A DNA stretch of 64,000 bases from Pseudomonas promysalinigenes (GTDB lineage Bacteria > Pseudomonadota > Gammaproteobacteria > Pseudomonadales > Pseudomonadaceae): assembly GCF_014269025.2 (NCBI RefSeq), contig NZ_CP077094.1, positions 1,736,001 through 1,800,000 of the forward strand, given 5' to 3'. Numbering within the stretch: the first letter of the stretch is position 1; every line of letters begins with the position of its first letter. The translations under genes and the position numbers were made by a program. Shown here piece after piece: positions 6,623-43,379 of this stretch. The notes beneath the pieces are model-generated. The model was not told where the DNA came from. It searched no databases and worked only from the letters and a program-made list of their open reading frames with translations.

Positions 6623-8283
6623 TCAGGGTCGAGGAGTGGACGCCATCGGACGGAATCGTGCTTGAGCCTAATGCAGATACCGCAGCAAGGGAGCAGATAC
6701 GCTGTGTAGCGTTGACGGCAGGCCCAGGCTCAGGGAAGTCCGAACTTCTCGCTCAGCGGGCCGACTTCCTGCTCACAACCGGTGTATGCCGTTATCCAAA
6801 GCGTATCTTGGCAATCGCCTTCAAAGTTGATGCCAGCAATAACCTGAAGGAACGTGTTTGGCGTCGGTGCGGCGCCGCTTATGCGGGTCGCTTCGACAGC
6901 TATACCTTCCATGGTTTGGCCAAGAGAATTGTCGAGCGGTTCCGACCCGTGTTGACAGGCACCGATGCGCTGAACCCGAACTTCAAGGTTGTTGCCAAGG
7001 GCAAGGCTCATCCCGTGCAGACCGAGTTCAAAGAACTCATCCCACTCGCCATCAAGATTCTTGACGCCTATCCGCCGGCGATCAACGCGATACGCCAAAC
7101 GTACAGCGATGTCTTCCTGGACGAATTCCAGGACTGCACGGATGAACAATACAAGCTCGTGACTAGGCTCTTCGTAGGGGCTGGTCGCCGCGTGACTGCG
7201 GTAGGGGATGTGAAGCAGAAGATCATGGGATGGGCGGGTGCCTTGGATGGTGTGTTCGCTAGGTTCGTCGAAGACTTCGATGCGCGACACCTCAATATCT
7301 ACCGCAACTTTCGGTCACTGCCTCACCTGCTTAGGCTTCAGAACGACATCATCAAAGTGCTCGATCCTGCATCGGAAATGCCTGGGAATTTGCTCAGTGG
7401 CCAAGGGGGTGAGATTCATTTGCTGCGCTATGCCGATTGCGAAGATGAGGCCCGTGACCTCGCCGAGCGAATTTCGCATTGGGTCAACGTTGAGGGAATC
7501 GCACCCGCAAAGATCGCGATACTCACGCGTGCTCAGCCCGAGGCCTACTGCGTGCGTTTGACTTCCGAGCTGGAGAGCTGGGGTATCAGCTATCGGAACG
7601 AAAACAAGGCACAGGACATCTCCACTGAGCCTATTGCCCAGGTCATCGTGGATTACCTGCTTTGTATCTATGGCCTGCGAGAGCCCAAGGCTTGGACGCG
7701 TCTAACTCGCCGGATCATTCCTTCGGAGGACGACGCCGACGGTAAGCTCAAGAGCAATTGGAGTCGTTATGTCAAAGAGGCGCGCAAGTCGGCCGCGGCT
7801 GATATGGTTGGCAAGACGTATGCTCAGCGGTGGGAGCTCCTGGAAGAGTTTCTGAGCATGGTGGGGCAGACGTTACTGGCCGGCCTGTCTCATGATTACC
7901 AGTCCCGAGAGCATCTACGCGAGCTCATCGAGAGCGTCAAAACCTACATTGACGAAGCCATGGTCAGAGAACCCGACCTTCTTCAAGCGCTGGCCCAGCT
8001 CTCAAATGACCAGTCGATACGTATACTCACCGTGCACAAGAGCAAGGGCTTGGAGTTCGACACAGTCGTATTGCTTGGCGTAGAAAGTCAGGCCTACTTC
8101 GGTGACCTCCATGAGAGCCGATGCACATTTTTTGTTGGCGTATCACGTGCAGAGCGAAGACTCGTGGTGACAACGGCGGGGCATCGGGACAATCTCGGGC
8201 AGGTCAACCACTGGAAGGTATCCCGCACAGCCCAAGCTGAATTCCTAGAGTACGTTATCCCTTGGATTACTCATTCTAACTGA
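6619..8283 (+). CDS. gajB: Gabija-like GajB: UvrD-family helicase
   Basis: A 554-residue SF1A helicase coupled to the GajA-like gene by an ATGA overlap. Motifs in order: Walker A (AGPGSGKS, about residue 34), Walker B (FLDEFQDC, about 166), a motif III region GDVKQKIMGWAGA, motif V (VHKSKGLEF, about 471) and motif VI (FVGVSRAERR, about 504). In Gabija systems GajB joins GajA in a large complex and is thought to sense or process DNA ends during infection. The length is close to known GajB (about 500). Two different UvrD-type helicases therefore bracket the GajA-like gene. Confidence 0.8.
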   Translation: MIRVEEWTPSDGIVLEPNADTAAREQIRCVALTAGPGSGKSELLAQRADFLLTTGVCRYPKRILAIAFKVDASNNLKERVWRRCGAAYAGRFDSYTFHGLAKRIVERFRPVLTGTDALNPNFKVVAKGKAHPVQTEFKELIPLAIKILDAYPPAINAIRQTYSDVFLDEFQDCTDEQYKLVTRLFVGAGRRVTAVGDVKQKIMGWAGALDGVFARFVEDFDARHLNIYRNFRSLPHLLRLQNDIIKVLDPASEMPGNLLSGQGGEIHLLRYADCEDEARDLAERISHWVNVEGIAPAKIAILTRAQPEAYCVRLTSELESWGISYRNENKAQDISTEPIAQVIVDYLLCIYGLREPKAWTRLTRRIIPSEDDADGKLKSNWSRYVKEARKSAAADMVGKTYAQRWELLEEFLSMVGQTLLAGLSHDYQSREHLRELIESVKTYIDEAMVREPDLLQALAQLSNDQSIRILTVHKSKGLEFDTVVLLGVESQAYFGDLHESRCTFFVGVSRAERRLVVTTAGHRDNLGQVNHWKVSRTAQAEFLEYVIPWITHSN

Positions 8284-28809: not shown

Positions 28810-29743
28810 TCATGCAGTAGCATGAAGATCGCTCCAGAAACGATAGCGGATCTGCGCAGAGGACACGCCAAACACCTCAAGGCGGGCTATTTTTTCCTCT
28901 ATGTCATCATCAGGCAACACTGCAATTGTCCAGGGTACTGACCTGCCTTTCAGCGCACCCACCACGGCAGCAAAGTAAGGGCCATCCACAGGATCAAGAG
29001 AATGGCCGAGTACCACGACCTGCTGGATATCGCTCAAGCTTGCGAAAAAATTGGCATTGCGTTCGATGATTTCTCTCGAAGGCTTAAAGGTCGCAGAAAA
29101 ATAGTCGTCCAAGGACTGCATGGCTTCAATAATGCGGTGATCTGAGTCTTCATGATCAACTGCCTTGAATAGAGAAGTCCGATCGTCTGGGCCCCAGCCA
29201 TGACCCAGGATGAGGTCAGAGTCATCATCTGCCGATTCGCCATGGATGTGTAAAATGTTGGAGCCAGGCACGCGATAGACGCTACTCAATGTACCTGTGT
29301 AATTGAAGGTCAGGTAGGTTGCATGGATGTCCAGCTCTGCTAGGCGATTCTGCGCACTGAGTGCATCTGGAATCTCGATAGTCCTGACCCATTGGGCGAA
29401 GAGTGTTTGGAGCGTTCCCGACAATCCCTGGGCCACTCGGTCGACTTCGTATTGAAAGTCGTGATTACCCGCGTCGCTCCAGTTCTCGTCAGCGTACGAT
29501 CCCATGAAATGTTCGAGGCTGTTGATGATGTGGTCGGTGTCTAGGTCAGCCAGGGCCGCCTCCAGGTCGGCCCAATGCTCCCCCCGCTGGCACGTAGTCC
29601 TCCATCCAGTCGTAGACGTCACGGTCATGTGACTTCACATAGGCTTTGAAATGCCTGTATCCGGTAGGCATGCGGTGGTTCAAATCGAAGCCGTTCCCGA
29701 TGATGTAAAGAGTCTGGGGGAGGGTGGGTAACTCGACGGTCAT
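28810..29743 (-). pseudogene. AbiH-family abortive infection protein, frameshifted at a G6 tract
   Basis: The two frames join as one AbiH-like protein of about 310 residues. The N-terminus has the family's LYIIGNGFDLNHRMPTGY nucleotide-binding-like motif (about residue 11). The rest includes LTFNYTGTLSSVY, ILHIHGES, LGHGWG and VVVLGHSLD, all AbiH hallmarks. The frames meet at six Gs (C6 on the plus strand, 29580-29585); removing one G gives ...VPAGEHWADLE. AbiH aborts phage infection in other bacteria by an unknown mechanism. As sequenced the protein is cut at about 65 residues. It could be a true mutation, slippage switching or a read error. Confidence 0.75.
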
Positions 29744-30451: not shown

Positions 30452-30934
30452 TTAGGACGTGCGCTGTTCATACGATATGCTTGCGATATACCAGGTTGCT
30501 TCGCCTGTAGGCGTCTGCACCACCACCTCATCGCCTTCTTCTTTTTTCAAAAGCGCACGAGCCATGGGGGAGTCAATTGAGATGTAGTCATTTCGCCCAT
30601 AGATCTCATCGTAGCCGACAACCCTGAATCGTTTGCTCTCACCGCCCTCATTTTCGATTTCGACCCAGGCGCCAAAAAATACTTTTCCTTCTTGCTCCGG
30701 GGAGTAGTCAACGACGCGAATATCCTCAAGCCGCTTTCTCAGATAGCGAATGCGTCGATCAATTTCGCGCAGCAATTTTTTATTGTACTGATAATCAGCG
30801 TTCTCGCTCCGATCGCCAAGAGAGGCGGCCCAAGTCACCTTTTGAGTGATCTCGGGGCGATAGGTGTGCCAGAGATGGTCAAGCTCTGCCTTCAGGGCGT
30901 TATGGCCTGCGCGGGTGATGATGTTGGTGGCCAA
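30452..30934 (-). CDS. greB: Transcription elongation factor GreB, island copy
   Basis: A complete 160-residue GreB: an N-terminal coiled coil (about residues 1-75, with SLGDRSENADYQYNKK) whose acidic tip reaches the RNA polymerase channel, and a C-terminal FKBP-like domain (GRNDYISIDSPMARALL). It stimulates cleavage of backtracked transcripts. It starts at TTG with AGGAG six bases upstream. It lies just downstream of gmtX, on the opposite strand to the interrupted chromosomal greB at 39790. The two differ at many synonymous positions and several residues, so this is a foreign copy, not a duplication. It probably replaces the disrupted gene. Confidence 0.9.
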   Translation of the reverse strand: MATNIITRAGHNALKAELDHLWHTYRPEITQKVTWAASLGDRSENADYQYNKKLLREIDRRIRYLRKRLEDIRVVDYSPEQEGKVFFGAWVEIENEGGESKRFRVVGYDEIYGRNDYISIDSPMARALLKKEEGDEVVVQTPTGEATWYIASISYEQRTS

Positions 30935-31230
30935 TCTCGGCTCCTATGGTTAATCGGGGCGCCGAGCGCTCCTCTATCGGACGCTCGACAACTGCATGAT
31001 GATGGTGACCTCTGTACTCATTCAGCTGAGAGCATTGAGCCACCATTTATCCTCCGTACGAGCCTATCATGCTGAAGAGGACAGAGTGCGATGAGCAAAG
31101 GTGGCTCTTCACGCAGTGCTCATGATCGATCTCTAACTCGGTGGCGAGGGGGGAGGTCAACTGCACCACAGTCAATGGCGCAGTCTTGGGGGGCAAGCTG
31201 GGAAACTCGCAAGCGCGGCGGGGCGGAAGG
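30935..31230. other. Spacer between greB and gmtX
   Basis: About 300 bases. It should carry the island greB promoter. I see no ORF or clear terminator. Confidence 0.35.
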
Positions 31231-31824
31231 CTAGAGATGCTTCAAGGCCTTATCAATCGCATTCATCGTACCTGGTCGGAAGAGCTCCTCGTTGTTTGGC
31301 CCGCAGACCTCGCCTCGTGGCCCCCGCGTGAGTGAGCGCTTGGTGAAAAAGGCTTCAGAACTGATGTATTCCAACGCTCGTCGCTCTCCAGGTAGTAGCT
31401 TGAACTGTGCTGCCGGCTGTTGCCTTAGGTCGATTTCAAACACACGATCACTTGGCAGCACCTCTTTGATTATCCGTTGTGCTGCCTTGAGCTCCGCCAG
31501 CAGCATCTTGGCCAAGAGCTTCGTTTCCCCCGCTGGTAGCGCTTCAATCCAGCCGTACGGGCCGGTAGCTTTGGGCTCTTTAGGCCCTACTTTGGGTGCA
31601 AACGAGTCGATCAATGCGCGGTAGTTGGCTCCGCTGGCATTATGCAAGCTCTGTGTTGCCGGGACGCCGTATGCCTTGCCAACGCGAGAAATCATCGCGT
31701 AGCTGAAATCGGTGCTGCCGCGCTCGCGTTGCTCCTTGCATGCCATGTAAACAGCATCGAGCGTTTTGTGCGTGCGGGGTTTGCTGGTGGCTTTAAGCTC
31801 TGCCAAGAGCTCTTCGGGAGTCAT
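31231..31824 (-). CDS. gmtX: Gamma-mobile-trio protein GmtX
   Basis: A 197-residue protein beginning MTPEELLAELKATSKPRTHKT. The N-terminal half looks helical and DNA-binding-like (VYMACKEQRERG...YAMISRVGKAYGVPATQS); the rest is unassigned. It is called GmtX mainly because it directly follows gmtZ with a 1-nt overlap (TGATG) and has the size and place of the third protein of gamma-mobile-trio elements. In such elements the three proteins are thought to mobilise islands rich in defence and toxin cargo. Its own role is unknown. Confidence 0.7.
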   Translation of the reverse strand: MTPEELLAELKATSKPRTHKTLDAVYMACKEQRERGSTDFSYAMISRVGKAYGVPATQSLHNASGANYRALIDSFAPKVGPKEPKATGPYGWIEALPAGETKLLAKMLLAELKAAQRIIKEVLPSDRVFEIDLRQQPAAQFKLLPGERRALEYISSEAFFTKRSLTRGPRGEVCGPNNEELFRPGTMNAIDKALKHL

Positions 31825-34800
31825 CAGGCATACTCCTCATGCGATTGCAGAACTACCGATTTGTCCACCTGCTCGAACGTATATTCGATCACACCCGCGT
31901 CTTGGGTATTGCGTGCTCGTTGAGCGCTATCATTTTCGAGAGCGTAGGTGAGCACCGCGCTGGCTTTCTCCCCCTTCAGTAGCATTTCGAAGGATTGCGT
32001 GGTGAGCCTTTGGTTTTCTGGAAGATCGCGCATCAGCAATCGTCCATCTACAACTGCGTCCAGGTTGTCCCATGATCCCAGGCGTGAAAGCAGGAACTGG
32101 GTAGCCTGATTGCCGATGACCAATTGCTGCCGCTTGTCCAGCCGGAAGAATGTCGGCTGAAGCTCGTTCAGTTGCAGAAGTCGATCCAAGTGCTGAGAGC
32201 GTGTCGTGAGCGCCAGGTCGGCTTTGGCTGAGACGTAGATCTGAGCATTTTCGCAGACCTCGCTCAACTGTTGGAAAAAGGATGTTTCCTCAAAGGCAAA
32301 AATTACCTCATGTTCTTCTTGAATGATAAGTTGAGTGGCGTTCGAAGCATGGTCGTTGTCAACCTGTTCGTTGAGGGCGGCTTGGCACTGTTCCACTAGT
32401 CGCTTGATTCCATTCATGTCCGACAGATACATGTCCGCCGTCCGGGAAGCAGTGGAAATTTGTCCATAGTTGCCATTGATCTGAGATTCAAGTTCATCTA
32501 GCTCTGTGGTATCGTAAGTCCCACCCGCATTTTCAATGTCACTCTGCTCTTCCCTGCATTTTTTGGCGCGCTGCTCCAAATCGTAGTTGAGCTCTTCCAT
32601 ATCATGGATGTGGTCAAACTGGAACTTTGCCGCAAGCGAGATCTCATTGCTCAGAGATAGCAGGCCGCCCAAGAAAACTGGCCCAGTAATGAAATGTCTA
32701 CAGCGAATGCAGTTCTCACTTCCAAGGTAGCCCGCAGGCACGTATGTCCACTTTCCGACTTCTGCCAAGAAGCCGTCATGGCAACGATCAGCAGCATAGG
32801 GACATAGTCCGTAATCTCTGAACAATGTACTGCCTGGCGCTAAACTTCCTACAAATCGAGTAATGGCTTCAGAATTGTTTGTGATCAATGCATGGCGCAC
32901 CTGCTCGGTGCGACCCTGTTGGATTTTCTGCCAGTCCTCTTTAGCTTGGGAGGACAGAGCCCGCTTCTCTGCCTCCGTAAATTTCAGCCGCATCATTTTT
33001 TCATTGATTTTCACGTAGTACATAGTCATGACAACAGAGCTGTGGCCTACGATCTTAACGATCATTTCCATAGGAATACGCTCGTCCATAACATAGGCGG
33101 TAATCAGGCTGACCCTCATGGTGTGAGGAGTATAAATAGATGTGTAGGAAGTGACTCCGTTCGGGTTGCCGTTTAGTGTTGCCAGTTCGACACTTTGAGG
33201 CTGTGAGTTATAAAGAGCGATGGCGATACGATTGTGAAGCCTAGGGGAGAAGCTCCCGCTGCATTCTTCTGCTCCAAGCTCCCGGAATAGGAAGCAATTG
33301 CTCCCCTTGGCTAGAAGATCATTTTCTGAGTAGTTTGTATGACGGCACTCAATCCAAGGCATAGCCCTGTGTATTGGATTGTACTTTGTTTGCCATTCCC
33401 TTAACCGGATACACCACAAGCCGAGTGCTGCTGGCATCCAGGGGACGTTATAGGTTGGGCGCTTGCGTGAAGTTTTGTTAGTTGTGATATACATGCCAAT
33501 TTCATCGTCTTCATATCTCTTGATGAATCCCTGTGGCTTGGGCTTACCCTTGATCCGGTTGGTGTTGTTAATCCATTCAATTTTACCATCACGAATGACA
33601 GGGATTTCTTGGTCACCCTCCCCGGAGTCAACGTAGGCAATCTGAAAACCGCGCAACGGGACTGAGGCAAGGGCGTAAGTATGCATCCAGGCGCCCGGGA
33701 ACCAGATACGGCACTTTCCGTTGACGAACTTGTAGACGCAGTTAGGGTCGTCAGGATCAATCAGGTTCTCCTCGATTTCATACCAGTCAGCCTCAAACTC
33801 ATGCAGGTGGGTGAGGTCTGAGAAACTCTGAGCAGTAGGGGGAATAATCCAGTCTCGCAACCCTGCTACGTGGTGGAACGCCAGGCAAGGTTTGACGGTT
33901 TCACTTGGCTGGAAACTAGGTGCGATTGCCGGGTTGATTACCATGAATGGATCCCGGGCTCCCTCAATCATGATACGTTCGCGGGTATCTTCGCACTCAA
34001 TGCTCAAATTGCTACTAATATAGTGTTCAGAAAATTCCTTGAGCGCGTTAACCACCTTGCGCTGCAGCGTTTCCTTTAGGGTGGTGATATAGAATTTAAA
34101 TTCATCGGTGTTGAAGCGGTCTGATGTGAAAATGTCCGTTGGATGGCGACCGATTTTCCTGGGGGCGAGAAAGTCGCGAACGTAGCGGACAATGTAGTTC
34201 TCTTTGGTCGAAGCGCCCCTGACACTGCGTAAGAACTTTACGATTGCCGGTTGCCACTGCTCATAAGGCGCACGCAAGGTCGAAATAGTATAAGGCTCTG
34301 TTTTTCCAAGGAAAGAAGTCCAGTTGATCCACGCATCATCATATACCTTGTCAGGTGCGAGTGGAAAACGATTGTCGCCAGTTTCAATAATGTGGGCCTT
34401 GTACTCTAGTGCAGAGTTAAGGCCGAGCGGCTGAAGTTTTACAACGACTTCCTCGTAAGAGTATGGCTTGATCATGTCGCATAGATCAAACCAGTCTATC
34501 CAGTCGTGAGGGAAACTCCGATCCGGGTTCGCAGGAAGGCACGGGTGTTTCGGTTGTTTTTCTCGATACTCTTTGCTGTCTTTGATGCCAAGATACTTTA
34601 CAGCAAATTTGGTTTCCTCAAGGGTGGAGCATTTCTCGGGCAAGATAAAATCGGCCCAAGTGGTGTAATCCTTATACACGTCATGTGGAGCGCCGGGAAG
34701 TTTTGGGTCTCCGTGCCGAAGCCGCGCATAATCGGTAATTAAAACAACGCCCAGGCCACGTGCGGCGGCCGCTGCCGCGCGCATCGTTGGGTAGAATGCG

Positions 34801-35831
34801 CCAAAAAGGAAAGCGCGCCAGCCGGTCTTAGGCCATGCTCGCTGATAAAAGATGTCTGGCCTTTTGGGGAGCATGGGGTCTTCGCTGAAGCGGGTCAGAT
34901 AATCATTTTTGACATCGATCCCGAGCTTGCGAACGGCAGCAGTGGCTTCTTCGATAGTGGGATACTTTGGTTGCCCGGCCAGGAAGTCTTCCCAGTCTTT
35001 CCAGTTGGAATACGTTCTATCTGGCGATGGGGGGAGGCGAGTATCTTCAGAGAAACATGCATGATATTCGCCTTTAGTGGCAATACCGAGCGCCCGCACG
35101 GCAGCCTGGGCTTCATGATAGTGTTCGTAGGGTTTTCGAGCCAGCCCCAGAAAATGCAACCACCCGTGCCACATTTTCTTGTAGGTAGACTCAGGGCCCG
35201 CAGGGAGCCGAGGATTCTCTGCTCTCAATTTAATGTAGGCCGCCCGAGTTGTTATGCCTGCGTTTCGTACCAGGTCTCGCGCATCTTCGTATTTGAGGAG
35301 AGCTTCCTTGCCCAGTCCCAGGTAGTCGTTCCATCCATTCCATTCCTTATAGGCAAGCTGAGGAGCAGCATAGAAGCGTGGGTCAATATCGATGCAGGTG
35401 TCTCGATAGTCCGACGCAGTACGGAAATGGTAAGAGCGTGCGATTGCGCGTGCCTCATAATAATCTGAATATTTTTGCTCTTTGTCGAGAAAATCAATCC
35501 AGCCCTTCCAGTCAGAAATGTATGTTTGGTCTGGTCGAGAAGGGAGTTTGAAGTCTCTTTTGTAAAGTTTTGAATATTCAGCAGACGAGGTAATACCAAG
35601 TTTCAAGACTGCGCACTTGGCATCTTCAAAGGTGTGGGTTTCGGGTTCGGCTTGCCCGATGAAATGCAAATGGCCACGCCATTCTTCTGGATAGTATTCA
35701 TGAGGGGCGCTCGGCAGGCGAGGATCCTCCGTGCGGCGCTTTTTATAGTCTGCAACAGTTGTGATTTTCAAGCGAATGCAGGCTTCGCGTGCTTCTTCGA
35801 ATGTTGGGTAAAAATTCTTTTTCTTGGCCAT
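31824..35831 (-). CDS. gmtZ: Gamma-mobile-trio integrase GmtZ (VPA1269-like)
   Basis: A 1,335-residue protein. Residues 7 to about 520 are nine tandem repeats of about 55 residues, each following the pattern ...A...LGI....EY......D.RLP..P...Y...W..W.DFLG, matching the phage-integrase repeat unit. A core-binding region follows. Near residue 910 lies a tyrosine-recombinase-like centre with HTMRVSLITAYV, VGHSSVVMT and MYYVKI, supplying the HxxR, GH and Tyr residues. The last 300 residues include a CxxC-type cluster (CPYAADRC...CIRCRHF) and long coiled coils. Size, repeats and neighbours fit the GmtZ/VPA1269 family. The gene is AT-richer than the core genome, which suggests transfer. Confidence 0.85.
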   Translation of the reverse strand: MAKKKNFYPTFEEAREACIRLKITTVADYKKRRTEDPRLPSAPHEYYPEEWRGHLHFIGQAEPETHTFEDAKCAVLKLGITSSAEYSKLYKRDFKLPSRPDQTYISDWKGWIDFLDKEQKYSDYYEARAIARSYHFRTASDYRDTCIDIDPRFYAAPQLAYKEWNGWNDYLGLGKEALLKYEDARDLVRNAGITTRAAYIKLRAENPRLPAGPESTYKKMWHGWLHFLGLARKPYEHYHEAQAAVRALGIATKGEYHACFSEDTRLPPSPDRTYSNWKDWEDFLAGQPKYPTIEEATAAVRKLGIDVKNDYLTRFSEDPMLPKRPDIFYQRAWPKTGWRAFLFGAFYPTMRAAAAAARGLGVVLITDYARLRHGDPKLPGAPHDVYKDYTTWADFILPEKCSTLEETKFAVKYLGIKDSKEYREKQPKHPCLPANPDRSFPHDWIDWFDLCDMIKPYSYEEVVVKLQPLGLNSALEYKAHIIETGDNRFPLAPDKVYDDAWINWTSFLGKTEPYTISTLRAPYEQWQPAIVKFLRSVRGASTKENYIVRYVRDFLAPRKIGRHPTDIFTSDRFNTDEFKFYITTLKETLQRKVVNALKEFSEHYISSNLSIECEDTRERIMIEGARDPFMVINPAIAPSFQPSETVKPCLAFHHVAGLRDWIIPPTAQSFSDLTHLHEFEADWYEIEENLIDPDDPNCVYKFVNGKCRIWFPGAWMHTYALASVPLRGFQIAYVDSGEGDQEIPVIRDGKIEWINNTNRIKGKPKPQGFIKRYEDDEIGMYITTNKTSRKRPTYNVPWMPAALGLWCIRLREWQTKYNPIHRAMPWIECRHTNYSENDLLAKGSNCFLFRELGAEECSGSFSPRLHNRIAIALYNSQPQSVELATLNGNPNGVTSYTSIYTPHTMRVSLITAYVMDERIPMEMIVKIVGHSSVVMTMYYVKINEKMMRLKFTEAEKRALSSQAKEDWQKIQQGRTEQVRHALITNNSEAITRFVGSLAPGSTLFRDYGLCPYAADRCHDGFLAEVGKWTYVPAGYLGSENCIRCRHFITGPVFLGGLLSLSNEISLAAKFQFDHIHDMEELNYDLEQRAKKCREEQSDIENAGGTYDTTELDELESQINGNYGQISTASRTADMYLSDMNGIKRLVEQCQAALNEQVDNDHASNATQLIIQEEHEVIFAFEETSFFQQLSEVCENAQIYVSAKADLALTTRSQHLDRLLQLNELQPTFFRLDKRQQLVIGNQATQFLLSRLGSWDNLDAVVDGRLLMRDLPENQRLTTQSFEMLLKGEKASAVLTYALENDSAQRARNTQDAGVIEYTFEQVDKSVVLQSHEEYA

Positions 35832-35960
35832 TTGAGGTGCTCCGGTAAATTGCTATACAGTCAGTTTTTAATCAGGTAGTGCTTTGTAAGTTGAATTCAT
35901 TCACCAAGTTTCTGCTTTCCTATTTAAATTTTTCAAGTTGAAATCTTCTTTCTCTGAATG

Positions 35961-36116
35961 TTAGGCGGAGTAAGCGTCTGACAGATGTCTCATTGGCTTC
36001 CTTGGTGGTTTTTTGCTGATGTTGTACAGGCCGGCCAGGAAGATGTTCAGGCTGTGTCCGATACAATGATCCCGGATATCGGTGGGGTGCTTGTATAGTG
36101 CTTGGTTGCTATTCAT
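35961..36116 (-). CDS. Undescribed 51-aa ORF between gmtZ and gmtY
   Basis: An open frame beginning MNSNQALYKHPTDIRDHC and ending HLSDAYSA. AGGAAG lies seven bases upstream of the ATG (minus strand), a good ribosome binding site. A hydrophobic-aromatic centre (SLNIFLAGLYNISK) could be an amphipathic helix. It lies in the 458-bp gap between gmtY and gmtZ, on their strand. I recognise no relative. It could be a regulator, a fourth trio component or a fragment of a longer gene. Confidence 0.5.
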   Translation of the reverse strand: MNSNQALYKHPTDIRDHCIGHSLNIFLAGLYNISKKPPRKPMRHLSDAYSA

Positions 36117-36289
36117 TTTCTACTTCCTGCTTCCTAATAACTAAGTTGACTGGCGAGTGTCTAGATTGCGCTTTATAGGACGAAGGCATTCGCCCATCGA
36201 GACTTTAGAGTCGTAGGTTTAGAGGCGTCCTCAGTAGGCCGATTGCACTTAGCTGATAAGCGTGCGAGTCCTTATGGGCCTAGATAAAT

Positions 36290-37663
36290 CTATGGTGATT
36301 GCCCTGCGTCCGAATTTGGGAGCCTGGCTATATGCGCGGCCTCAACTTGGCGCATTTTATTGCGAAGATCCGAGTTGGTCGGTTGGATATACACTTGGCA
36401 AGAAGTCACGCATTTATGGTGCATGGCTTTTTTGATCTCGACAGCACTGAATCCAGCCTCTGCAAGTCGATAGCCATAGGCATGTCGATGTCCATGCTCG
36501 GTAGTGCCATGGTACTTGGAAGATCTCAGATCAATTCTCTCTACGGCTGCACGATGCAGGCGCTGGAAGTTCTTGATGGTTTCAGGCTGGCCTTGGCTGT
36601 TGGTAAATGCATACGGGTGCCCTAGGCCTTTCGGTTCGACGCGCTGATAAAGTACGTAATTACGGAAAGCCAAGAGAAACTCTTGAGCTTTCGATGGCGG
36701 GAAGAACTGGACTTCAAAGTAACGTTGATTGTTAATGGCGGGCGCCTTCCAGCCCGCATGCTGTGATTCGGATTTCAAATATTCCGTGCGTGGCTTTAAG
36801 CGAAATTTCTTAAGTAGATACTCTCTGCGGTTTGCATAATTGTCGTCCTTTACTTTCCCCTCCGCTGGGTGGTGGATGGTCACGACTGCTTCCATTAGAT
36901 CTTCATCAATATCTATGTCGTCAAGGTAAATATGAAATGCCTCGCTTTTACGAATGCCGCCACTGTTCATCAGGATTGTTATGCACTGACTTTTCCAATC
37001 GGTACGCAGGTTTTTTTCCTCGTCTTGCTTGCCTGCAATCACGAAACCTTCATCAAGAAGCGTATGGAAGTGCTTTTCAGGAAAGCGCTTTACTTCATCG
37101 ACAATCACGCTTGATTGTTGCCGTCCCACCTCGCGGGTAAAGAAGTTCGCCTCCGCTTGCGCGTTGCTCGTCAAGTGATTCAAGAGCTTGTTGTCTTGGT
37201 GATGATGGTAGGCGCACCAATTCAGTCGTTCCTCGTAGCCAGTGGCGTCCCTGATCGGATTCATGACAACTCCACTGTGGCCTGGTTGACGAGTGAGCCA
37301 GTCGGTGTATCCCGTCAATAGGTTGATCAGGTCGTCGGCAGTCTCCGTCGTGCGGGGCGCCCAGTACAGGCCTGTCGGGTCTTCCAGGCGCTCGTCGACT
37401 GTTCCGTAATAGAGCGCATGCCGAAAACCTTTGAGTAGATCTGTGGGGGAGGTGAAAGGGATCCCGCCGTGGTCGACGAAGGTCAGCAACAGTCGGACGA
37501 CCAGGTTCACTTTCTGGTGCCATGATTGGCTGCGATGCTGCTCACTCTGATACTGCAGCAGGGAGGTCAGGATGCCCTTGTCGGTCAGCACAGCCGGCAA
37601 GCGAGTCGTCTTGACATTGGTCGGCCCCCGGTAGTCGACCTTGACCTTGATGACGGCGCTCAT
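36290..37663 (-). CDS. gmtY: Gamma-mobile-trio tyrosine recombinase GmtY
   Basis: A 457-residue protein with a tyrosine recombinase catalytic domain. The first arginine is in NSGGIRKSEAFHI (about residue 241), the HxxR in TEHGHRHAYGYRL (about 393), a histidine in MHHKCV and the tyrosine in CQVYIQP (about 428). The N-terminal 200 residues form the arm- or core-binding part (SWHQKVNLVVRLLLTF). It is the first of the trio on the minus strand and is upstream of gmtZ and gmtX. The start at 37663 is the first ATG after a long AT-rich leader. Confidence 0.83.
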   Translation of the reverse strand: MSAVIKVKVDYRGPTNVKTTRLPAVLTDKGILTSLLQYQSEQHRSQSWHQKVNLVVRLLLTFVDHGGIPFTSPTDLLKGFRHALYYGTVDERLEDPTGLYWAPRTTETADDLINLLTGYTDWLTRQPGHSGVVMNPIRDATGYEERLNWCAYHHHQDNKLLNHLTSNAQAEANFFTREVGRQQSSVIVDEVKRFPEKHFHTLLDEGFVIAGKQDEEKNLRTDWKSQCITILMNSGGIRKSEAFHIYLDDIDIDEDLMEAVVTIHHPAEGKVKDDNYANRREYLLKKFRLKPRTEYLKSESQHAGWKAPAINNQRYFEVQFFPPSKAQEFLLAFRNYVLYQRVEPKGLGHPYAFTNSQGQPETIKNFQRLHRAAVERIDLRSSKYHGTTEHGHRHAYGYRLAEAGFSAVEIKKAMHHKCVTSCQVYIQPTNSDLRNKMRQVEAAHIARLPNSDAGQSP

Positions 37664-38156
37664 CGATCGCGATCTCGGATGAGGTGGTGACGAAGGAGCT
37701 GAGAGCGCTTGTTGATGTGGGGCTCATTCGAAGGCGGGGCGACGGTGCCGATGTGGGTGGAGGTCTGATTGTCGAGGCGCATGCAAAATAGATCCTAGAT
37801 TTTGGAAGTGAGGGCTTGACGCGTTAGGTATACTCGGTATATATTGTTGATATCTATAAATCCATGTTATCACTGTTGCTTTTTCTTTAGGAAGCGCTTT
37901 TGCGTTTCTCCTACTATTTTGTGCCTGCCTGCCTGCCTGCCTGCCTGCCTCTGTCCCTCTGTCCCTCTGTCCCTCTGTCTCTCTGTCTCTCTGCTTGATC
38001 GACTCCTTGAGCTTTTCCATCTGTCGCTGCTTGGCTAGCAGATCTGGGGGGGGCGGCCGGGTGTCGGTATCCGTTGTGAGGGGGCGCACGGATTCCGCCC
38101 CTGGCGCCTTTATATAGAAGGACGCAGACTCAAGGTTTGGCGACCGTGTGGTCGGG
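37664..38156. promoter_or_regulatory. Divergent regulatory region upstream of gmtY
   Basis: A 493-bp gap between gmtY (minus) and the nuclease-like gene (plus). It includes an AT-rich block (about 37,825-37,870, with TATATATTG) suitable for a gmtY promoter, and a tandem-repeat tract described separately. A minus-strand frame across the repeats (37724-38089) is low-complexity and not supported. Confidence 0.4.
37923..37990. repeat. Tandem simple repeats: (GCCT)7 then five octamers
   Basis: Seven copies of GCCT (37923-37950) are followed by three CTGTCCCT and two CTGTCTCT units (37951-37990). Neither unit length is a multiple of three. Such tracts are rare in Pseudomonas chromosomes and prone to slippage. 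Confidence 0.92.
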
Positions 38157-39527
38157 ATGGTGATCGCAAGGAGTGTGGTGCGAGTGATTTCTGAGTTGAA
38201 GGATGATGATTTCCCAGCGATCTACGAGTCCCTGGTTGCCTTGCTCCCCGATAGGCCGTGGGTCAAAAGGGTGTTGAGCTTGGAGCATCAGGTTGGCGAG
38301 GCGCCCCTGATGCGTTCTTTTCTCTGGAGCCGGAACATCATTGCCTACGGGCTGAGGGAGTTTGATTGTCACGGGCTGCAGCCGCCAACCTCAGAGTCGT
38401 GGGGTGCCATCAAGAGTGCGCTGATTTTTGCGTCGCAGGTCTTGTTGCTCTGTCGACAACACTCATCTGGTGGTGACGAGGAAAGTCGGGGAAAGCTTTT
38501 GGGGCGAGTGCGGCATGCCATCAAGGATCCAGATGGTATGCGTGGGCTTCGCTTGGAGCTCATGGTGGCAACGCACCTGAGTCGGCAGGGTTGCGAAATT
38601 CAGTGGATGGAAGAAGACGTGGGGGTTGGTACCTTCGACTTGCTCGCCAAGCTTCCTGGTGGTGCTTCGGAGGAGCCGGGTGATGTTTGGGTGGAGGTCG
38701 AGTGCAAGAGTATTTCCGCTGATCGGGGAGAGCCGCTGACAGAGGAAGAATTCAACCTTCTGGTCGGCCCCATCCTTCAGCTCATTGAGCCGCGTTTGCT
38801 CCAAGTCGAGCGCCATTTTTTTGGCATCTCGGTTGTCTTTACAGGCAAGCTGCCCAAAGGGGCGGCGCAAGGGTCGGTCGTCGAGGCGGTAGCGAGTGCA
38901 GTTGGCAGAGCGAGATCCGGAGAGGAGGCATTTGAGGTGCCAGGCGTTTGCCTGGTGCGAGTAGTTCTCTCTGATCTCAGGGAGGTGGTAGTCAAGGGTG
39001 AGGGGCTTGCGAGGGAGGAGGCTTACGCGCTCGCCGACCATCTGATCGGAGCGGGGAACGGTTTTCGCGTCATCAAGGGATTTGGAGATGAGTGCTACCT
39101 TTCGATTGATTTTCAGGCCGCGCTCCCAAGCAATTTCGAGGCCGGGCTCGGCAATGTTGCAAAGCGGGCTGTTCGCAAGCAGATGACTGGTGCGCGCCCG
39201 GGCTGTTTGGTTGTCGGGGTTGAGCGTCACTCCGGGGCTTCGCTCGAAGAGGTGTCACGCCAAGAGTCTGATGAATTGGCGCAAAGGGCCGCCAAGCTGC
39301 TCCGTGAGAGCCCGCACCTTGCTTCAGTCGTGTATGTCAGTGCGCCGATCTTGGAGCGAGTTGAGGCTGCGGATGATGGTTGGAGGCGGGCAGGGGAAGC
39401 GGCAGTGCTTGAAGGTCAGGAGCAGGGGCTTGTTTCCGAGGGGGAGCTCAGTCGCACGTATGTGTTTGACAACCCGGCTGGTCATTACCCGCACCTTCGA
39501 CTCAGTCGGCTTTTCGGGGTTGGCTGA
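38157..39527 (+). CDS. PD-(D/E)XK nuclease-like protein
   Basis: A 456-residue protein. Around residues 128-185 it shows a restriction-endonuclease-like core: LRLELMVATHLSRQG (E), VGTFDLLAK (D) and WVEVECKSIS (ExK). The flanking regions are unassigned. The first helical 120 residues may bind DNA or a partner. The start is uncertain: GTG 38148, ATG 38157, or GTG 38178 behind AAGGAG. It is the only cargo gene between gmtY and the right end of the island, and it is transcribed towards that end. A defence nuclease is likely but unproven. Confidence 0.6.
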   Translation: MVIARSVVRVISELKDDDFPAIYESLVALLPDRPWVKRVLSLEHQVGEAPLMRSFLWSRNIIAYGLREFDCHGLQPPTSESWGAIKSALIFASQVLLLCRQHSSGGDEESRGKLLGRVRHAIKDPDGMRGLRLELMVATHLSRQGCEIQWMEEDVGVGTFDLLAKLPGGASEEPGDVWVEVECKSISADRGEPLTEEEFNLLVGPILQLIEPRLLQVERHFFGISVVFTGKLPKGAAQGSVVEAVASAVGRARSGEEAFEVPGVCLVRVVLSDLREVVVKGEGLAREEAYALADHLIGAGNGFRVIKGFGDECYLSIDFQAALPSNFEAGLGNVAKRAVRKQMTGARPGCLVVGVERHSGASLEEVSRQESDELAQRAAKLLRESPHLASVVYVSAPILERVEAADDGWRRAGEAAVLEGQEQGLVSEGELSRTYVFDNPAGHYPHLRLSRLFGVG

Positions 39528-39789
39528 GCATTGAGTTTGATTTGGGCTGCACCAAACTGGTGTCAATCGCGTCCGGGTCTCAGCACATCTTCAAGGGCGT
39601 GCGCCTCTCTAAGGTTTCCCCGATGAGTCCGCTGCTGCTATTTGGGGGAGGGCTTTGGGTGGGCGCTTACCGCGCCGGCGATTGATCCAGTCGAAGGTGC
39701 TCGGCCCAGTGTAGCCGTTGTGGTGCCGAGGCTTGGGGTGGCTGAGGGGCGGGTTGCTAGAAATAGTAGGTCGTGGGGTGGGGTGATAA
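39528..39789. other. Right end of the island, junction with greB
   Basis: No gene is supported here. Homology to greB begins abruptly at TACCAGTACAAC (39790). The island boundary is therefore within a few bases of 39,789, after GGGTGATAA. Confidence 0.6.
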
Positions 39790-40122
39790 TACCAGTACAA
39801 CAAGAAGCTGCTGCGCGAGATCGATCGTCGGGTCCGTTATCTGCGCAAGCGGCTGGAAGATGTCAAGGTTGTCGCTTACTCGCCTGAGCAGGAGGGCAAG
39901 GTATTTTTCGGCGCCTGGGTCGAGATCGAGAATGATGATGGCGAGGCCATGAGTTTTCGTATCGTGGGGTACGACGAGATCTATGGTCGCAACGACTATA
40001 TTTCGATCGACTCGCCCATGGCCCGCGCGTTGCTCAAGAAGGAGGAGGGCGATGAGGTGGTAGTCAATACGCCGACCGGCCCAGCCACGTGGTATGTCAA
40101 TAACATCCGCTATGGGCAATGA
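39790..40122 (+). pseudogene. greB: Chromosomal greB, 3' fragment cut by the island
   Basis: This is 110 codons plus stop, in one frame from YQYNKKLLREIDRR to the GreB C-terminus (ATWYVNNIRYGQ). It corresponds to residue 48 onward of the intact island GreB. The first 47 codons are absent here and should lie at the other island end, left of the window. Codon use is GC-rich like the core genome. It lacks a start and promoter, so it is not expressed as GreB. Confidence 0.92.
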
Positions 40123-40188: not shown

Positions 40189-42696
40189 TCAAGTTTCACG
40201 CAGCACTGCCAGGGGGCTGGCATTGAGCGCCCTGCGTGTTCCAAGCGTGCCTGCTCCGCCCACCAATATCGCCCCAAGCAATGGCAGCGCCAGCAGCCAC
40301 AGGTGCGGGCTCCATTGCAGGTCGAACGCATAACGGTACAGCACCAGCGTGATCAGTTCGCAGCCGAGCGCCGCTAACGTGCCACTGGCGGCACCCAGCA
40401 CACCGAACTCAATGCGCCGAGCCCTGACCAGTAACGGCCGCGAAGCCCCCAAGGCGCGGAGGAGGGCGCCCTGGCGAATCCGCTCATCCAGGGTTGCCTG
40501 CAAACCGGCGAACAGGACTGCAAGCCCTGCTGCGAGCACGAACAGCAATACATATTCGACGGCCAGGGTCACCTGGGCCAGGATGCTGCGCAGCTGCTCC
40601 AGAAGGGCGTCGACTTGCAGTATGGTCACGGCCGGGAAGGCCCGGGACAGTGCGACAACGTCCAGATCATGGCCGGCGGCCAGGTAGAAGCTGGTCAGGT
40701 AAGTAGTGGGCAGGCCCTGCAGGGTGCCAGGCTGGAAAATCATGTAGAAGTTTGGCTGAAAGCTGTCCCAATGGACGCTACGAAGGCTAGTGACCCGTGC
40801 CAGGCGTTGTTCGCCGCCTATATCGAAGGTCAGCAGGTCGTCCAGTTTCAGCTTGAGGCTGTTGGCCAGCTCGGCCTCGACCGATACCCCAGGGATTTCA
40901 TCGCCCACCGGCAGTGCTCCCCACCAGTTGCCCGCGCTCAAGCTATTGCCTGCGGGCAGGTCGGCCGCCCAAGTCAGGCTGAGATCGCGTTGTACCGCCC
41001 GCTCGCCCGCGGACTCCTTGCTGACGATCTGTTGCACGGGTTGATCGTTGATCAGAATGAGCCTGCCTGGCGTCACCGGATACAGCGGCGCCGAACTGGC
41101 GTTGACCCCACGCAGGTGTTGGGCGAAGGGTTCACGGTCGGCGGGCAGGATATTCAGGGCAAAGTAATTGGGCGCGTCTTTGGGTAACTGCGCCTGCCAG
41201 GTGTCGAGCAGTTCTGCCCGCAGCAGCGCAACGAGCGCCATGGCCAGCAGGATCAGGCCAAAGGCCAGAGCTTGCCCGGCGGCTGCGGTGGGGTGGCGTA
41301 GCAACTGGCCTAATCCCAGACGCCAGGTCAGCGGTGCTCCGCCAAGCGCCCTGCGCAGGCTTCGCAAGCCAAGCAAGAGCAGGCCCCCAAGCAGCAACGC
41401 CGCGATCAGACCGCCCCCTAGCAGGGCGAAGGTTAGCAGCAGATCAAGGCTAAGACGCCACATGATCAACCCCAAGGCGAGCAGCGCTGCACCATACACT
41501 AACCAACTGCTGGGTGGGACCGGGAGCAGGTCACGGCGCAGTACCCGCAGAGGTGGCACCTGCCCGAGCGCCGCCAGTGGCGGTAAGGCAAAACCGGCCA
41601 GGGCTACAAGGCCGGTGGCGATGCCCGCCACGGCCGGAAGTGCGCCCCCTGCTGGCACTACGCTGGGCAGCAGGCCGTGCAACAGGCGGAATAAGCCCAG
41701 TTGCGCAAGCCAGCCCAGGACAGCACCGGCTAATGCGGCTATCAGGCCAAGAATCGCCAACTGCAGGCAATACAGCCCCAGTGCCTGATGCCGCGACAGC
41801 CCCAAGCAGCGCAACAAGGCGCTGGCGTCCAGGCGGCGCGCTGCATATCGGCTGGCTGAAAGCGCCACTGCAACGCCCGCCAGCAGCACGGCAACCAGGC
41901 TGGCCATGTTCAGGTACCGCTCGGCCTTGCCCAAAGCTCCGCCGATTTGCCGGTTGCCGTCGCGTGTGTCGAGCAAGCGCTGGCTGGCCGCCAGGTTTGG
42001 CTCTACCGCCTGGCGGTATTGCGCAAGCGCTTGTGCATCACCGCGCCAGAGTTCGCGATAGGTAACCCGGCTGCCAGGCTGAATAACCCCAGTGGCCTGC
42101 AAGTCTGCCAGGTTCATCATCAGCCGCGGCGTGAGGCTGTAGAAGTTGTTGGCACGATCCGGTTCGTAGGTCAGGACCCGGCTGATGCTTAAAGTTTTCA
42201 TACCGACGTCAATGCTGTCGCCGATCTTGAGCCCCAGCGCCGCCAGCAGACGTGGCTCGACCCAGGCTTCACCGGGTGCTGGGCCGCCGCCCGCTGACTC
42301 CTCGGCGTATGGGGCGCCAGCGCTGCGCAGCTGGCCGCGCAGTGGATAGGCGCCGTCGGCTGCCTTGATACTCGAAAGCTGAATACCGGCATCGCCACCT
42401 ACCACACTGGTGAATTCCACGACCTGGGCGTGGCGCAAGCCCAATGCCTGCCCAGCGCTGAGCTGCTCGTCATTGGCAGGAGCACTGCCTTGCAGTACCA
42501 GGTCGGCGCCAAGAAACTCGCTGGCGCGCAATTGCATCGCGCCATTGAGGCGAGCGCCGAAATAGCCGATGGCGGTACTGGCGGCGACTGCTACCACCAG
42601 GGCGAAAAACAGCACCCGGACCTCGCTGGCGCGGACGTCGCGCAACAGCTGGCGAAAGGCCAGGCCACACAGACGGGGTAAGGGCATATGCTTCAT
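40189..42696 (-). CDS. ABC transporter permease, FtsX/YbbP type
   Basis: An 835-residue inner-membrane permease with duplicated FtsX-like halves. One helix lies near the N-terminus, a cluster of helices around 250-500 (LLAGVAVALSA, LLTFALLGGGLIAALLLGG), and four more near the C-terminus (YVLLFVLAAGLAVLFAG). Large periplasmic loops lie between. With the coupled ATPase it forms a YbbAP-like exporter or mechanotransmission pump; the cargo is unknown. The start at 42696 (MKHMPLPRLCG) overlaps the ATPase stop (TGATG). Confidence 0.87.
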   Translation of the reverse strand: MKHMPLPRLCGLAFRQLLRDVRASEVRVLFFALVVAVAASTAIGYFGARLNGAMQLRASEFLGADLVLQGSAPANDEQLSAGQALGLRHAQVVEFTSVVGGDAGIQLSSIKAADGAYPLRGQLRSAGAPYAEESAGGGPAPGEAWVEPRLLAALGLKIGDSIDVGMKTLSISRVLTYEPDRANNFYSLTPRLMMNLADLQATGVIQPGSRVTYRELWRGDAQALAQYRQAVEPNLAASQRLLDTRDGNRQIGGALGKAERYLNMASLVAVLLAGVAVALSASRYAARRLDASALLRCLGLSRHQALGLYCLQLAILGLIAALAGAVLGWLAQLGLFRLLHGLLPSVVPAGGALPAVAGIATGLVALAGFALPPLAALGQVPPLRVLRRDLLPVPPSSWLVYGAALLALGLIMWRLSLDLLLTFALLGGGLIAALLLGGLLLLGLRSLRRALGGAPLTWRLGLGQLLRHPTAAAGQALAFGLILLAMALVALLRAELLDTWQAQLPKDAPNYFALNILPADREPFAQHLRGVNASSAPLYPVTPGRLILINDQPVQQIVSKESAGERAVQRDLSLTWAADLPAGNSLSAGNWWGALPVGDEIPGVSVEAELANSLKLKLDDLLTFDIGGEQRLARVTSLRSVHWDSFQPNFYMIFQPGTLQGLPTTYLTSFYLAAGHDLDVVALSRAFPAVTILQVDALLEQLRSILAQVTLAVEYVLLFVLAAGLAVLFAGLQATLDERIRQGALLRALGASRPLLVRARRIEFGVLGAASGTLAALGCELITLVLYRYAFDLQWSPHLWLLALPLLGAILVGGAGTLGTRRALNASPLAVLRET

Positions 42697-43379
42697 CAGG
42701 CCTCCACCGGCGTTACCAAGTGGCCCGCCTCCAGGCGTATCTTGCGTCGGCAACGCCTGGCCAAGCGCTCGTCATGGGTGACCAGTACCAGTGTGGTGCC
42801 GCGTTCCTTGTTCAATTCGAACAATAGATCGCTGATGCGCTCTCCCGTATGGCTGTCGAGGTTGCCCGTGGGCTCGTCGGCGAACAGCACGGCCGGTTGT
42901 GCTGCAAACGCACGGGCGATGGCGACCCGTTGCTGTTCGCCGCCGGAAAGTTGCCGTGGAGTGTGGGTCAGGCGCTGACCAAGGCCCACCCGCTCCAGCA
43001 AGGTGCGCGCGTGGTCGCGGGCATCGCGCCGGCCGTCAAGCTCCAAGGGCAGCATCACATTCTCCAAAGCGTTGAGGCTGTCTAGCAATTGGAACGACTG
43101 GAAAACGAAGCCTACATGCTCGGCCCGCACCCTGGCGCGCTGGTCCTCGTCCAGGGGGCCGAGGTCTTGCCCAGCCAGGATCACCTGCCCGGCACTGGGC
43201 CGGTCCAGGCCGGCCAGCAGGCCGAGCAAAGTCGATTTGCCCGAACCCGAGGCGCCGACAATGGCCAGGCTGTCACCCTTGGCAAGGTTCAGGGACAAGG
43301 CATGCAGAATGGTCAGATCACCTTCCGCGCTGGGTACCACTTTGCTAAGGTTCTGAGCAACGAGAATACTGGGGCCCAT
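42696..43379 (-). CDS. ABC transporter ATP-binding protein, YbbA type
   Basis: A 227-residue LolD/MacB-class ATPase: Walker A GASGSGKST (about residue 42), Q-loop FVFQSFQLL, signature LSGGEQQRVAIARA (about 145), Walker B AVLFADEPTGNLD and H-loop LVTHDERLA. It powers the FtsX-type permease encoded next. The start at 43379 (MGPSILVAQNLSK) lies back to back with tesA, so the two promoters overlap; longer upstream starts read through tesA and are rejected. Confidence 0.9.
   Translation of the reverse strand: MGPSILVAQNLSKVVPSAEGDLTILHALSLNLAKGDSLAIVGASGSGKSTLLGLLAGLDRPSAGQVILAGQDLGPLDEDQRARVRAEHVGFVFQSFQLLDSLNALENVMLPLELDGRRDARDHARTLLERVGLGQRLTHTPRQLSGGEQQRVAIARAFAAQPAVLFADEPTGNLDSHTGERISDLLFELNKERGTTLVLVTHDERLARRCRRKIRLEAGHLVTPVEA

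Follow-up and report, generated by a model that had tools for sequence, protein, structure and literature searches.

The stretch analyzed here, called the window, comprises 64,000 nucleotides of Pseudomonas promysalinigenes (G000:C1:1736001-1800000; the genome is a single contig of 5.05 Mb) and contains part of a gamma-mobile-trio (GMT) island that is inserted in greB and carries a complete greB of its own (Table 1). As the initial annotation had proposed, the native greB is cut between codons 47 and 48 with its 3′ part at the right end of the island, which was confirmed by translation of that part. The first 47 codons, expected to the left of the window, were found there; the gene is split exactly at the codon 47/48 boundary, and no greB base is missing. 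The island greB, which had been described as an intact and diverged gene beside gmtX, matched the GreB model above its cut-off and lies 296 bp from the gmtX stop. It has a TTG start, an AGGAG-like ribosome site (recognized by eye), and an intact GDRSENADY tip motif. A whole-genome search returned it as the sole intact GreB and detected no intact native greB elsewhere; the two remaining hits, 37% and 29% identical, are presumably GreA and a related paralogue. Native and island greB share 72% nucleotide identity, and synonymous sites are saturated in the 3′ part; the island copy is therefore not a recent duplicate, in agreement with the initial annotation.

GmtY, GmtZ, and GmtX each exceeded their NCBIfam cut-offs. 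The three genes are adjacent, in the order Y-Z-X and all on the minus strand, near the island end at position 39789, and the island carries defense cargo consisting of GajA/GajB-like proteins, AbiH, and a cyclase of the cyclic oligonucleotide-based antiphage signaling system (CBASS) with a two-transmembrane (2TM) effector. The whole island measures 45,750 bp (45.75 kb), excluding a 6-bp fingerprint at its distal end. Between gmtY and the island end lies an open reading frame (ORF) of 459 amino acids with no Pfam, NCBIfam, or PADLOC match, whose counterpart (92%) adjoins the greB 3′ fragment in P. taiwanensis (L194). In most greB islands outside Pseudomonas, the gmtY start is about 100 bp from the island end.

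Table 1. Features of the greB locus and the GMT island in P. promysalinigenes (positions are those of the window unless a contig or locus is named)
Feature	Coordinates	Strand	Remarks
Native greB 5′ fragment	G000:C1:1729893-1730033 (= L006:1893-2033)		6 kb left of the window; ends at codon 47
Distal-end 6-bp fingerprint CTCGCT	L006:2034-2039		
GMT island, part in the window	1-39789	.	Continues left to G000:C1:1730040; greB-fragment junctions at both sides
Island greB (putative rescue copy)	30452-30934	-	160 aa; TIGR01461 259 bits, cut-off 171
gmtX	31231-31824	-	NF040692 177 bits, cut-off 40
gmtZ, large recombinase	31824-35831	-	NF047926 627 bits, cut-off 600; Integrase_2 and INT_rpt domains (PF13009, PF14882)
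gmtY, tyrosine recombinase	36290-37663	-	NF040693 480 bits, cut-off 340; PF00589
459-aa ORF	38148-39527	+	Between gmtY and island end
gmtY-proximal island end	39759-39789	.	..AATAGTA..GGGGTGATAA; similar in other greB-GMT ends read
6-bp target footprint TACCAG (greB codons 48-49)	39790-39795	+	Retained at gmtY-proximal end
Native greB 3′ fragment	39790-40122	+	Translation is GreB residues 48 to end (codon 48 to stop)
FtsX-type permease (named by eye)	40189-42753	-	Chromosomal, flanks native greB locus; host marker

A scan of a genome-contig collection for GmtY yielded 19 loci, distributed over P. taiwanensis (whose GmtY, at 95% identity, is the closest to that of P. promysalinigenes), 11 Acinetobacter, 2 Ignatzschineria, 2 Marinomonas, Pseudoalteromonas, Wohlfahrtiimonas, and Methyloprofundus. 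Intact greB was present in 19 of 19 genomes, a greB 3′ fragment starting at residue 44 to 48 in 18, and a 5′ fragment likewise in 18. Among 298 Pseudomonas genomes, GmtY exceeded the cut-off in 22, P. promysalinigenes included; eight of these have the island in greB, with both fragments and an intact island copy in all eight, and the other 14 showed no greB fragment and no second greB, each having one GreB-type gene. A class sample (369 genomes, 3 over the GmtY cut-off) and an order sample (390 genomes, 9 over it) added three greB islands (G428, G924, and G741). No greB was seen within the 19 to 20 kb read in G683, G979, G914, G1006, G1035, and G925, all over the cut-off, nor in the stretch read of G811, whose GmtY is below it; G633, also below the cut-off, was left out.

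In total, these surveys gave 30 genomes with islands of the greB lineage, from seven genera including Pseudomonas, plus three further genomes outside Pseudomonas. greB is cut at codon 47/48 in 29 of the 30, and the recurrence of an identical junction in so many genomes excludes chance. Both halves were read in 26 genomes, in 18 of them on one contig. An intact greB, that is, a complete homologue of the interrupted gene, was assigned to the island in all 30; it lies beside gmtX (within 0.51 kb) in 25 and elsewhere in the island in 4 (G238, G273, and both Marinomonas, with gmtY and greB of M. piezotolerans on different contigs). Other GMT islands thus also sit in greB and carry the gene beside gmtX, as the initial annotation had anticipated. 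In the GmtY tree, from which three of the 30 greB islands were left out for a broken or cut gmtY, 27 greB islands fall within one clade of 28 rows with support of 100/100. The native 5′ fragment in A. junii (L176) was observed to contain an in-frame stop, a sign of decay after interruption.

Both ends were read in 26 islands. In all of these, the gmtY-proximal end has the form ..AATAGTA..GGGGTTATAA or similar and is followed directly by greB codons 48-49, and six bases separate codon 47 from the element at the distal end. The island of G145 is inverted, and its two ends are swapped accordingly. The proximal and distal 6-mers differ in 24 of the 26 islands and are identical in 2 (Acinetobacter ANC 3832 and A. 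haemolyticus). A 6-bp footprint with six other bases at the far end, the transposition mode of Tn554-like elements and of strand-biased circularizing integrative elements (SEs), was therefore found throughout. Six of the 26 fingerprints (24 distinct) start with TAC or TAT like greB codon 48, which is above 1 in 32 (p = 1.2e-4); the other 20 do not, and the previous address was therefore mostly not greB. In single cases, decay of a copy of codons 48-49, and not import from elsewhere, could account for the distal 6 bp; this is unlikely as a rule because the adjoining 5′ fragments are well preserved. Plasmids are a likely previous address.

GmtY was found in 133 plasmid records, and the four with the highest similarity (45%) were examined for greB. 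All four have greB after gmtX, with one greB place each and no cut greB found. pTHAF12_b (L248, NZ_CP045401.1), from Halomonas sp. THAF12, is a circular record of 47,894 bp that matches the island integrated in pTHAF12_a with zero mismatches over 47,888 bases. Its joint reads GGTTCTTT-GGTGTA-AAAGAACC, where GGTGTA equals the 6 bp at the distal end of the integrated copy and not those at the proximal end; this fits a circle that integrated into pTHAF12_a from another donor, or a bias opposite to that of SEs, whose circles take along the donor flank adjoining the recombinase end. This record from a relative speaks indirectly for mobility that depends on the trio. The record was deposited as a plasmid and has no replication gene in the PLSDB table; its island carries mercury and copper genes.

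Retention of greB on plasmid copies where no cut greB was found, together with its position within a few tens of bases after gmtX in many islands, would also suit a GreB that helps the element's own recombination, replication, or transcription, with its identity to the target being secondary. We regard such a helper role as unlikely, because the other Pseudomonas GMT genomes (14 of 14) have no second greB. This includes G234, which has a GmtY of the greB lineage, another target, and no greB in the stretch read. In addition, greB is far from gmtY in G238, G273, and Marinomonas communis, and a decayed island in G041, described below, retains greB after loss of the trio. When up to 6.7 kb beside gmtY were compared by tblastx with the rest of the fetched sequence in the 14 other Pseudomonas islands, whose far ends lie outside this range, no copy of the respective target was detected; weak, scattered hits occurred in two islands (L059; L069, 32% over 72 aa).

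To place the island copies, a GreB tree of 69 rows was computed from residues 48 to the end. In this tree and in a second one described below, the alignments were short, several long branches meet, and the deep forks lack resolution; the starred shallow forks were relied on. The island GreBs of P. promysalinigenes, P. taiwanensis, G258, and G031 form one clade (99/94), grouping by island and not by host. Their native greBs lie elsewhere, those of P. promysalinigenes and G258 with G275 (99/92) and that of G031 with G004 and G196 at a weak fork. Island copies from Acinetobacter, Ignatzschineria, and Wohlfahrtiimonas likewise fall into one clade (100/100), and nine Acinetobacter natives fall into another (100/100). 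The native gene of G238 and G273 belongs to a second GreB type (52-55% identical to the query), and the island copy is of type 1 (81-85%). Ratios of nonsynonymous to synonymous substitution rates (dN/dS) were 0.02-0.10 in eight island greB pairs, which show purifying selection.

Mobile elements often acquire genes near their target. This general tendency and the several origins of the island greBs would agree with passive capture, in which greB was picked up by chance near the target and travels as ordinary cargo with no selection for replacing function. The presence of greB in 30 of 30 genomes, the low dN/dS of the eight pairs, and the retention of greB as sole copy after island decay make passive capture quite improbable.

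The initial annotation had also supposed that the copy protects its own integration site. Synonymous differences at the site between the island and native copies of P. promysalinigenes could suggest a recoded gene that resists insertion and acts as a decoy, shielding the occupied site from additional islands, an idea that we find hardly credible. The two sites differ only synonymously, insertions elsewhere have struck natural greBs whose site sequences differ to the same degree, and two island-type greBs, in Acinetobacter sp. S54 and A. rudis, are themselves cut at codon 47/48. Immunity by recoding was rejected on these grounds, and with it the supposed protection of the site.

Overall, it is very probable that a lineage of GMT islands is specific for greB codons 47-49 and includes a complete greB among its own genes, with the island GreB presumably replacing the lost function. 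The replacement of function is suggested by purifying selection and by retention of the gene as sole greB. In its general form, the earlier claim was supported: greB is the target of a GMT island, which brings a complete and diverged copy of the gene. Judging from the sequences, the element inserts in circular form or by way of a circle, and this circle has a 6-bp spacer. Of the target, 6 bp are kept at the gmtY-proximal end, and the distal six bases are most likely the circle's spacer from the previous address. The native greB is split without loss, which leaves the island greB as sole intact greB; in most cases this gene comes directly after gmtX, and in most it is inverted relative to the native gene. 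By substituting for the lost function, the island GreB would make insertion cheap, and hosts with a very different GreB would become invadable. The host may then come to depend on part of the island, a dependence that would help keep island DNA; decay of the island would leave the rescue gene as host greB, open to insertion by the next island.

Several observations weigh against this interpretation. greB is not essential in Escherichia coli, so the saved cost may be small. The island greBs are not a single clade: 10 label changes are counted on the tree, at least 5 of them forced by starred branches, and the rescue gene must therefore have been exchanged over time. A scan for promoters and terminators near the island greB of P. 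promysalinigenes found nothing, including no sigma-70-like site. G234 (L069, G234:C21) is the 28th row of the greB-lineage GmtY clade and is inserted in another gene, which by its reading frame and by eye seems to resemble a mechanosensitive channel; no greB was found in the stretch read of this island, and the only greB of the genome is on another contig. This case suggests an occasional change of target. In Methyloprofundus, neither greB junction was found; the genome has another full-length Gre-like gene (43%), possibly an intact native greB. Among the 26 genomes with two greB halves, 8 have them on separate contigs, the islands of G428, G924, and G741 were read without their left end, and in Ignatzschineria bin42 (1 of the 30), greB is on a separate contig, where linkage to the island was not seen. 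Searches by tblastn with GmtZ and GmtX of P. promysalinigenes gave no match in either Marinomonas. Lastly, pTHAF12_b could be a collapsed tandem repeat and not a free circular island.

Evidence that rescue genes have taken the place of native greBs came from several loci. The gene cut at codon 47/48 in Acinetobacter sp. S54 and in A. rudis is itself of the island type. It points to an mltF-like neighbor, the reverse of the direction that native greB has in three other Acinetobacter used for comparison; the S54 and A. rudis genomes yielded no further greB, nor any trio relic beside the cut gene. In G041, a worn 5′ fragment of a type 2 greB ends at the insertion point and is followed by a GMT-like end, beyond which lie an intact type 1 greB, other genes, and a type 2 C-terminal stub, with no trio. 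This locus is probably a fossil island that kept greB and lost the trio. G082 has a 31-base relic beside an intact type 1 greB and in the opposite direction; the relic matches the type 2 greB of G005 with one mismatch, ends after codon 49, and is likely the scar of a replaced type 2 greB. In G025, G041, and G037, the only greB is inverted and groups as sister to island greBs (99/97, 99/95, and 99/88, respectively). These groupings come from a second GreB tree, for which 68 rows were prepared and eight near-identical island rows of these then left out, and whose bootstrap is not fully settled. For each of these loci (S54 and A. rudis; G041; G082; G025, G041, and G037), the sequences give good support for replacement of native greB by a rescue gene.

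The orientation of greB was then surveyed in 80 Pseudomonas genomes taken in list order, with known GMT carriers left out. Different species have one or the other of two GreB types (approximately 54% identical) at the same chromosomal locus, and the two types face opposite ways: type 2 is inverted relative to FtsX in 41 of 41 genomes, and type 1 is forward in 33 of 39. Three of the six inverted type 1 greBs are adjacent to FtsX, and three are distant from it (12 kb, 17 kb, and 390 kb). An FtsX tree was built for the 49 genomes whose sequence was available, with type 2 represented by only 9. The types are scattered on it, with 7 changes for the 9 type 2 rows and 8 changes for 8 inverted type 1 rows. 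Shuffled labels gave a similar scatter (means of 8.5 against 7 for type 2 and 7.6 against 8 for inverted type 1), which agrees with frequent switching and is no proof of its cause. Stretches fetched near greB in G037, G025, G009, G051, G079, G088, and G234 contained no greB fragment or trio, and G002 and G038 had no clear scar. A pattern search for GMT ends in these Pseudomonas loci returned none; it missed the end in G041 as well and was hence too narrow. Replacement by rescue genes as the cause of the whole type and orientation pattern in the 80 genomes is put forward as a proposal. More broadly, greB-seeking GMT islands may form a recurrent gene-replacement engine, in which every insertion would set a new greB, mostly inverted, next to the broken native gene, and decay of the island would leave the new gene to the host. 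Repeated rounds would yield two deeply different, oppositely oriented GreBs scattered over the Pseudomonas host tree; we see the case for such an engine as evenly balanced. If it holds, a mobile element would overwrite a core transcription factor at intervals.

The defense cargo of the P. promysalinigenes island was also recorded. A Gabija-like pair (window 4667-8283 and 1416-4262; GajA 1083 bits, GajB 864 bits) overlaps by 4 bases and is preceded by a 948-aa ORF with UvrD-type helicase matches, the best at 131 bits. A CBASS-like pair lies left of the window near the left end of the island (L006:6799-8719; cyclase 575 bits, 2TM effector 250 bits). An AbiH-family protein (window 28810-29628; PF14253 170 bits, PADLOC AbiH 54 bits) is encoded one gene from the island greB.

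Integrating elements such as SXT in prfC and e14 in icd keep their target working by supplying only the missing end and not a whole second gene. The systems closest to the greB islands are compared here. GMT islands were described by their gmtY-gmtZ-gmtX trio and defense cargo (Mahata et al. 2024, Nat Microbiol, as cited in PMC12039261), and the present island shares both, the trio being recognized by NCBIfam; its trio matches the GMT models, and it was therefore classed as GMT and not as SE. Unlike other GMT islands, it belongs to a greB-specific sub-lineage with a copy of the target, whereas a second greB is absent from the other 14 Pseudomonas GMT genomes, as is a target copy from the parts of them that were read. 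The SE known as SE-6283 or Tn6283 inserts in the conserved gene bcp and carries a bcp homologue that seemingly complements it (PMC9345347, PMC5991714). SEs have a 6-bp fingerprint and footprint, with the target's 6 bp adjoining the end that bears the recombinase operon (PMC10214605), and one copy of SE-6283 is on a plasmid, outside bcp (PMC9345347, PMC5991714, PMC10214605). The greB islands likewise combine a target-gene homologue, this footprint and fingerprint polarity, and plasmid copies; SE-6283 differs in its core genes (intA-tfp-intB-srap) and target, and the portions consulted, which compare five locations, do not speak of the host gene being replaced for good. Tn554 and Tn552-II have three transposition genes and bring along donor-site bases, 7 bp in Tn552-II, which also carries a gene like its target as a possible rescue mechanism (PMC12486829); Tn554 shows the footprint and fingerprint pattern of SEs (PMC10214605). 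Three genes, donor-site bases, and a target-like gene also occur in the greB islands, but the former elements are staphylococcal with genes tnpABC, and one element is described in the text consulted. WHO homing elements in yeast FBA1 sit in a housekeeping gene and supply part of it, with HO as a domesticated relative (PMC7282813); unlike the greB islands, they belong to a eukaryote, home by an endonuclease, and replace the 3′ end only, and the nuclease, not a rescue gene, was domesticated.

Our literature search, which did not extend to the original GMT paper (10.1038/s41564-024-01840-5), returned no publication joining gamma-mobile-trio and greB. The statement in the initial annotation that no description was known accordingly holds for GMT and greB in the literature searched and fails for the idea itself, which is in print for SE-6283 and bcp (PMC9345347, PMC5991714); as far as those sources go, the principle of target rescue is already known. 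New within the literature searched are the GMT/greB case, its lineage-wide fixity, the 6-bp marks of GMT islands, and the replacement series. These marks offer a readable record of an island's previous address. The results present target rescue as a stable, lineage-wide strategy of a defense-carrying island family and not as a single curiosity. They also indicate a possible route by which a mobile element could swap a conserved host gene for a foreign version and make the host depend on island DNA, and the intermediates listed here (intact islands, fossils, and scars) make gene replacement by mobile elements testable.

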